Positions 29,055-29,167 of a stretch of DNA of 56,959 nt are shown one piece after another. A model generated the notes under the pieces. It was not told the DNA's origin. It was given only the letters and a program-made list of their open reading frames with translations, and did no database searches. Position 1 is the first letter of the stretch. Each line of letters opens with the position of its first letter. Both the position numbers and the translations under genes were made by a program. Origin of the DNA: Actinomycetes bacterium (GTDB lineage: Bacteria; Actinomycetota; Acidimicrobiia; Acidimicrobiales; SZUA-35). The stretch lies in contig JAJRXF010000127.1 in assembly GCA_024276425.1 (NCBI GenBank), positions 1-56,959 of the forward strand. Reading direction: 5' to 3'.

Positions 29055-29106
29055 CGACTTACAAGAAGCCCGACGCGCCTGATTAGGCGGCCGGGCTTAG
29101 AAGTCG
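29055..29106 (-). terminator. leuA attenuator hairpin
   Basis: On the minus strand AAGCCCG (29098-29092) pairs with CGGGCTT (29072-29066), with an inner CGCCT/AGGCG stem, and the 3' arm runs into CTTCTTGT. An outer CGACTT/AAGTCG pairing (29106-29101 with 29060-29055) can extend it. The 5' arm begins within the last codons of the leucine-rich leader peptide, so ribosome stalling there would prevent folding. Confidence 0.7.
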
Positions 29107-29127
29107 GAGGTCGAGGAGGAGGTACAT
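29083..29127 (-). CDS. leuL: leuA leader peptide (leucine attenuator)
   Basis: A 14-codon frame encodes [14 protein letters not shown] with six leucines, three in a row using CTC, directly upstream of leuA. The stop codon lies inside the attenuator hairpin. Leucine shortage would stall the ribosome at the Leu codons and change the folding of the downstream stem, the classic attenuation logic known for leuA in enteric bacteria and reported for actinobacteria. There is no Shine-Dalgarno; a TAGTCT -10 ends 8 nt before the ATG, so the transcript seems to begin at the peptide. Confidence 0.8.
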
Positions 29128-29167
29128 CAGTGGAAAGACTAGCCGTTCTATGAGGGATTTGCGTCAA
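29128..29167 (-). promoter_or_regulatory. leuL-leuA promoter
   Basis: TAGTCT (29141-29136, minus strand) lies 8 nt before the leader-peptide ATG. A TTGACG (29167-29162) is 20 nt further up, longer than an ideal 17-nt spacer, so the -35 assignment is weak. Confidence 0.5.

Follow-up and report, generated by a model that had tools for sequence, protein, structure and literature searches.

The leuA leader region

The window analysed here, which covers positions 1–56,959 of contig JAJRXF010000127.1 from an acidimicrobial genome (G000), contains a leuA gene at positions 27321–29018, encoding a 565-aa 2-isopropylmalate synthase of the long form (NCBIfam TIGR00970, 802.9 bits against a cut-off of 697.4). 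leuA and all the features of its leader lie on the minus strand. Upstream of the gene, a frame of 14 codons, six of them for Leu as the first-pass annotation of this DNA had described, runs from an ATG at 29127 to a stop at 29083; its AUG is probably 5'-terminal in the transcript. A −10 box, TAGTCT (29136–29141), assigned from the spacing of TANNNT boxes in related genomes, ends 8 nt ahead of the ATG. The frame includes the codons CGA CUU (Arg-Leu; 29101–29106), and its stop codon sits at the loop of a single-bulge hairpin, CCCGGCCGCC-UAAUC-AGGCGCGUCGGG (29069–29095), which can be extended to 29098–29066. The previously reported frame, promoter box and stop within a hairpin are thus real, and that observation is partly confirmed; what fails is the terminator, because the "U-rich run" said to follow the hairpin is only CUUCUUGU and a terminator scan found no intrinsic terminator on the minus strand between 28800 and 29400. 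The 152-nt leader folds at a z score of −4.5 relative to shuffled sequences, and a 135-nt stretch at −3.9.

A TTGACG occurs at 29167, 20 nt from the −10 box, and a promoter scan of the leader region found no sigma-70 consensus site. Directly upstream of the leader promoter, also on the minus strand, are frames that we named by eye: one for a small, anti-sigma-like HxxxCxxC protein (29232–29501) and one for a sigma-factor-like protein (29498–30397). A similar small protein is found upstream of leuA in L089, a related locus discussed below. Apart from a tRNA-Leu (CAA) at 36663–36748, on the plus strand, the window yielded no tRNA gene.

Conservation of the leader within the family

We searched 39 genomes of the family to which G000 belongs (f1), found leuA in 37 and read 36 leuA 5' ends; G225 was left out because the leuA 5' end is missing, and G220 and G229 because they gave no leuA match. 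A regular expression for peptide ends resembling LRLxxPA[AV] identified the leader in 33 of the 36, and the two that it missed, L047 (VRLLSPAA-stop) and L088 (SRLISPA-stop), were found afterwards, bringing the core to 35 of 36. The sole member read that lacks a CGA-CUU leader is L089 (G216). Since 35 of 36 family members keep the core, chance is ruled out and, judged by its conservation, the 14-codon leader is real. The leader tests reported below used the 33 leaders found by regular expression, or fewer, except for counts of sites, which were made by pattern.

The 32 aligned rows of the family agree in every nucleotide of CGACTT and in most of those of the hairpin. A start and a stop are available in frames 0, 1 and 2 at 33, 4 and 1, respectively, of 34 sites, pointing to use of the frame that reads Arg-Leu. 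When we examined the sequence within 600 nt upstream of leuA, or as much of it as was available, the motif CTNCGACTT was present in 33 of 36 members of the family (3 on the antisense strand), in none of 52 other Acidimicrobiia and in none of 40 other Actinomycetota; only 57 nt are available upstream in L014, so its absence there, within the 0 of 52, says little.

A leaderless start

In 23 of 32 leaders of the family, a TANNNT box lies 5–9 nt before the nearest start, compared with 5, 2, 0 and 0 when this interval was slid, and none of the 32 has an SD-like word ahead of the leader start; the box count is lowered because the nearest-start rule misplaces some starts, and L048, whose contig begins close to the leader, was also dropped. 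The leader of the window itself combines the −10 box at 8 nt with the lack of an SD. Together, the TANNNT box and the missing SD fit a leaderless start of the leader peptide. A similar spacing was found in 30 of 46 leaders from other Acidimicrobiia (3, 0, 0 and 1 in the slid intervals), with two SD-like words, so the leaderless start looks class-wide and not special to the window.

Leaderless initiation of the leader, presented in the first-pass annotation as a departure from the enteric model, is not new, because leaderless leader peptides have already been published. The transcript of leuL1 (MRFGLLLLSCRGEGL), ahead of leuA in Streptomyces lividans, is leaderless and has no typical terminator (PMC8079986), trpL of Sinorhizobium meliloti is leaderless (PMC10117765), and the poly-Cys leaders of Mycobacterium smegmatis are leaderless and attenuate at the level of translation (Canestrari 2020, via PMC9031893 and PMC13236596). 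leuL1 differs from the leader in the window in having no Arg-Leu core and another tail, and the M. smegmatis attenuators differ in responding to cysteine and in controlling another operon. Among the Alphaproteobacteria described below, the TANNNT spacing was observed for 13 of 41 first frames (1, 4, 0 and 1 when slid) and 5 of 25 near frames.

Terminators in neighbouring leaders

Enteric leu and trp attenuators combine a Leu-rich leader peptide with an SD-led leader and a U-tract terminator; the leader in the window shares the Leu-rich short frame, but both the SD-led start and the U-tract terminator are absent. The first-pass annotation implied classical attenuation with an intrinsic terminator, a reading suggested by the six Leu codons and by the stop inside the hairpin. 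In the family, however, no terminator-like site lies between core and leuA in any of 33 core leaders (0.5 expected after shuffling). Three leaders of the family stand outside this count: L047 has no such site, L088 has one, located only upstream of the core, and the coreless L089 has one, which lies near leuA and consists of a terminator-like hairpin followed by a T-rich tail, possibly reflecting a switch to a terminator.

Terminator-like sites were frequent in the other Acidimicrobiia, being detected in 41 of 51 leuA leaders (2.7 expected; L014, with its short upstream sequence, was left out). The upstream regions of these 51 of the 52 loci (L003–L031 and L061–L083) look like classical attenuators with leaderless-spaced peptides, typically with a run of Leu at their end (LLLLM, LLLT). 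Other Actinomycetota showed 3 sites in 40 leaders against 2.3 expected, and Alphaproteobacteria with the motif 6 in 57 against 4.4, that is, no excess. With terminators in the neighbours and in 0 of 33 leaders of the family, the classical model fits other Acidimicrobiia but not this family, and we regard it as very improbable for the window. Leucine control through a leader peptide with a leaderless start, the other part of the first-pass interpretation, does fit the comparison.

Predicted pairing of Leu codons with the leuA Shine-Dalgarno sequence

Folding of the window leader predicts a base stem formed, with one mismatch, by the Leu codons CUCCUCCUCGA (29111–29121) and UCGAGCAGGAG (29031–29041), the latter a stretch that includes the leuA SD, AGGAG, at 29035–29031. 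This pairing was absent from the first-pass annotation. We evaluated it by swapping leader and SD regions among relatives. For 17 short-leader members of the family, the mean energy with their own SD region was −13.7 kcal/mol, compared with −12.5 kcal/mol after swapping; a mean this low arose in 40 of 2000 permutations. Even so, own pairs never came first in their row and on average ranked 7.1 of 17, and a control using the initial 35 nt of leuA showed a similar tendency (224 of 2000). For all 33 members, 38 of 2000 permutations were as low. The signal was weak in six mid-length leaders (187 of 2000) and null in ten long ones (948 of 2000).

We also modelled SD accessibility in 26 of the 33 leaders by imposing a ribosome footprint on the fold; leuA starts were assigned heuristically, and leaders without an SD-like word or start were dropped. 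In 13 short leaders (≤130 nt), the mean probability that the SD is unpaired was 0.17 in the free RNA. It was 0.46 for a ribosome stalled at Leu, two codons ahead of the core, 0.47 when CUU occupied the A site, and 0.19 for a ribosome at the stop. The corresponding values for the window were 0.08, 0.27, 0.40 and 0.02, and those for 13 leaders longer than 130 nt were 0.36, 0.47, 0.46 and 0.36. In other Acidimicrobiia (38 of 52 modelled) we obtained 0.36 free, 0.39 at Leu and 0.39 at the stop, and in other Actinomycetota (32 of 40) 0.22, 0.31 and 0.24. The model thus behaves as translational attenuation would require in the window and its short relatives, but not in the long ones; because it moves little in leaders longer than 130 nt, hiding of the SD cannot be the mechanism of the whole family.

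The LEU element upstream of actinobacterial leuA (Seliverstov et al. 2005, PMC1262725), a case of translational attenuation, resembles the window in its Leu-run leader frame, in a base stem that joins Leu codons to the SD of leuA, and in the absence of a terminator. The window has the Leu-run frame before leuA and, by folding, the base stem with the SD; neither the swap test nor the SD model gave a signal for such a stem in the long-leader relatives. The likeness ends at the core, since CTNCGACTT is missing from the 40 leuA leaders of other Actinomycetota, whose peptides are, for example, MRFGLLLLSCRGEGL and VQRVLLLGRRDGV. A conserved pseudoknot has been published inside the base stem of the LEU element (PMC1262725). 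On the model and on this analogy, translational attenuation is favoured for the window. Against it, mutations in the leuA leader of Streptomyces coelicolor are reported to have had effects not consistent with classical attenuation (PMC1262725, citing its ref. 22).

We therefore lean, on sequence and modelling, towards translational attenuation that needs no terminator, in which a leaderless leader peptide responds to charged leucyl-tRNA and so controls the translation of leuA. When leucine is plentiful, the ribosome would reach the stop and depart, the base stem would close and leuA would be off. With scarce leucine, it would stall at Leu codons, either in the CUC run or at CGA-CUU, and cover the 5' strand of the stem, freeing the SD. 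CGA-CUU, 5 nt ahead of a stable hairpin, would be a site tuned for stalling; a ribosome whose A site holds CUU would have the foot of the hairpin close to its mRNA entry.

The hairpin and its outer helix

In 28 distinct rows from the family, 96.8% of the pair cells of the hairpin are standard pairs, and two pairs show compensating changes, amounting to 16 cells. None of 500 shuffles was as high in paired percentage, changed cells or covariation score; the numbers of pairs changed on both sides and of further pair types did not stand out, being reached by 438 and 500 of the 500 shuffles, respectively. The stop falls within the hairpin at 33 of 34 sites of the family and at 58 of 71 alphaproteobacterial sites, and touches the apical loop at 32 of 34 and 36 of 71. 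Hairpins at the 71 alphaproteobacterial sites average −19.6 kcal/mol, compared with −8.9 kcal/mol at random positions. The 5-nt spacer between core and hairpin is constant in the aligned rows, which were themselves chosen for that spacer; a free hairpin search in Alphaproteobacteria gave spacers of 0–12 nt, a spread arising because longer hairpins absorb the spacer or because other hairpins win.

The peptide tail also varies with the hairpin. Within the family, a codon change from GCC to GTC (Ala to Val) is matched across the hairpin by a change from GGC to GAC. This bears on nascent-peptide arrest by LRLxxPAA, which the conservation of the core peptide in the family would allow. The PAA of that peptide varies with the hairpin in the family (PAV, PTA), and is replaced in Alphaproteobacteria by PAL, PAS, GGRRA, TRP or just LRL-stop; nor would arrest by a peptide need locked codons. 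Such covariation of tail and hairpin makes arrest by the peptide extremely unlikely.

A fold of the window pairs CGACUU with AAGUCG (29055–29060) in an outer helix around the hairpin. Downstream of the 34 sites of the family, AGTCG was observed 17 times compared with 7.2 after shuffling, and CGACUU-AAGUCG duplexes beat shuffles by 1.19 ± 0.38 kcal/mol in the family (34 sites) and by 0.45 ± 0.24 kcal/mol in Alphaproteobacteria (67 sites). As a reason for the invariance of CGACUU, the outer helix was rejected as only partial, with some support in the family and little in Alphaproteobacteria.

Related leaders in Alphaproteobacteria

We scanned a public genome set (84,980 species by its own description) with a pattern for core plus hairpin and obtained 64 hits, of which 40 immediately precede leuA; Acidimicrobiia account for 25 of these and Alphaproteobacteria for 15. 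At least 10 of the acidimicrobial hits are probably the same records as loci of the family counted above, so the two counts overlap. The other 24 hits are inside open frames of 197–2314 codons, and in none does the stop lie in the loop. A scan with CTNCGACTTNNNNNCCCG of 18 genomes gave 31 matches, 16 of which we read as leuA leaders; 14 of the other 15 were inspected (one had no locus), all lying in open frames of at least 210 codons, and inspection of 60 nt by eye revealed the leader layout in none of them.

In a class sample around Pelagibius marinus, 54 of 83 Alphaproteobacteria have the motif CUNCGACUU / CTNCGACTT upstream of leuA, against 2 of 83 with it on the antisense strand; L192 and L200, unplaced by tblastn, and G401 and G445, without a leuA 5' end, were dropped. 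In the class sample of Azonexus, taken as Gammaproteobacteria, CTNCGACTT occurs in 1 of 49 (1 antisense), and that one is inside an open frame; G582, lacking the 5' end, was dropped. One locus of the latter sample, L247, has a lone leader pair before leuA, CTACGACTA and CTGCGACTA, with CUA replacing CUU.

Alphaproteobacterial leuA leaders share with the window an in-frame CGA-CUU, a hairpin close behind it, a stop usually inside the hairpin, and leuA downstream. On the sense strand they contain 87 CTNCGNCTN sites, which by these codons read Leu-Arg-Leu, and 75 of them read CTNCGACTN; the antisense figure is 3 of 19. A peptide regular expression independent of codons recovered 12 alphaproteobacterial leaders ending in xxP[AT]x-stop, all 12 of which use CT[AT]CGACTT. 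A start and a stop are found in frames 0, 1 and 2 at 60, 1 and 1 of 67 sites. The first Leu of the core is not strict, being Pro, Ala or Val in three of the 15 alphaproteobacterial pattern hits and in L106. These leaders differ from the window in being longer and in that, at 13 of 57 motif-bearing loci, the CTNCGACT[TA] codons recur in two or three short frames; the distant frame ends in xxPA-stop or similar and the near frame in GGxRA-stop or similar. L156, in which the frames lie 338 and 150 nt before the leuA match, L180 and L219 are examples.

A core of CGA-CUU, five nucleotides and a hairpin, fixed at the nucleotide level and in frame, is new as far as these sequence comparisons reach, and neither it nor its presence in Alphaproteobacteria figured in the first-pass annotation. 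We found no description of a CGA-CUU leader in the literature searched, which mostly did not extend to subscription papers. In Rfam 15, the best match to the window segment 28700–29700 was CC0196 (15.9 bits against a gathering threshold of 35; E 0.91). Twelve alphaproteobacterial loci gave nothing at the gathering threshold, and 14 searched at E up to 1 gave a single match, not at the leader. CC0196, a Caulobacter sRNA, was rejected as a relative given its E value of 0.91 and a printed consensus without CGACUU.

In a midpoint-rooted tree of 134 LeuA proteins, the family forms one group (SH-aLRT 95), joined first by two other acidimicrobial rows (99), then by rows from other Acidimicrobiia and Actinomycetota (81), and then by one alphaproteobacterial row (94), with the remaining Alphaproteobacteria outside. 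This tree does not establish horizontal transfer of leuA from Alphaproteobacteria. The leader itself may have come to the family and to Alphaproteobacteria by shared ancestry, transfer or convergence.

The length of many of these leaders raises Rho-dependent attenuation, in which success or failure of leader translation would expose or hide a loading site for Rho, downstream of the hairpin and ahead of leuA, in the manner of Escherichia coli tna. The core lies up to 350 nt from leuA in the family and, for the first alphaproteobacterial frame, mostly 200–400 nt from it; intrinsic terminators are missing from the core leaders of the family and not in excess in Alphaproteobacteria; and a role of Rho has been proposed for actinobacterial cys leaders (PMC1262725). 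Rho would nevertheless explain neither why Leu codons pair with the SD where leaders are short nor why the codons are locked, and a ribosome stalled upstream of the hairpin likewise leaves the remainder untranslated. We thus consider Rho rather unlikely as the explanation, although it may operate generally across the family and its alphaproteobacterial relatives.

The locked CGA-CUU codons

Within the 32 window ORFs of at least 250 codons, CGA makes up 25% of Arg codons and CUU 20% of Leu codons. Rarity was consequently rejected as the reason for the lock, since neither codon is rare in this genome. The Arg codon CGA is read by I:A wobble. With such a codon in the P site and the hairpin positioned at the mRNA entry, decoding of CUU would become hypersensitive to leucyl-tRNA, and we propose the putatively slow codon pair before the hairpin as the leucine sensor.

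Another reading of the same invariance takes the CGACUU hairpin mainly as a binding site for a protein or RNA, with the frame secondary. It would account for nucleotides that do not change while the peptide tail does, and a binding protein was suggested for the LEU element by Seliverstov et al. (PMC1262725). We find it improbable in view of the strict frame with start and stop, of the stop that sits within the hairpin at nearly all sites of the family and most alphaproteobacterial ones, and of the leuA context, which fits a Leu sensor.

Returning to the codon pair as sensor, we propose tentatively, with less than even confidence, that these leaders constitute an unnamed family spanning one acidimicrobial family and about two-thirds of the sampled Alphaproteobacteria with a long-form leuA (54 of 83), in which CGA-CUU, 5 nt and a stop-in-loop hairpin would form the leucine sensor and the outputs would differ by lineage, with SD hiding in the window and something else in long leaders. 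Leader peptides usually sense amino acids through a codon run of loose sequence, whereas in these leaders both codons are letter-for-letter the same across two phyla, in frame and close to a hairpin, and so far seen only before leuA. The effects of codon pair and hairpin on starvation sensing thus become directly testable by synonymous recoding in cultured alphaproteobacterial hosts, among which Tepidicaulis marinus and Pelagibius marinus have the element in their leuA leaders. Within one phylum, leuA leaders follow three designs: most of the other Acidimicrobiia that were sampled use terminators, Actinomycetota outside that class have leaders resembling LEU, and the third design is CGA-CUU.

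In Pseudomonas putida lacking the tRNA pseudouridine synthase TruA, LeuA rises 4.2-fold, an effect for which the consulted part of that report offers no explanation through a leuA leader (PMC7822408). A tRNA-dependent leader could explain this rise.
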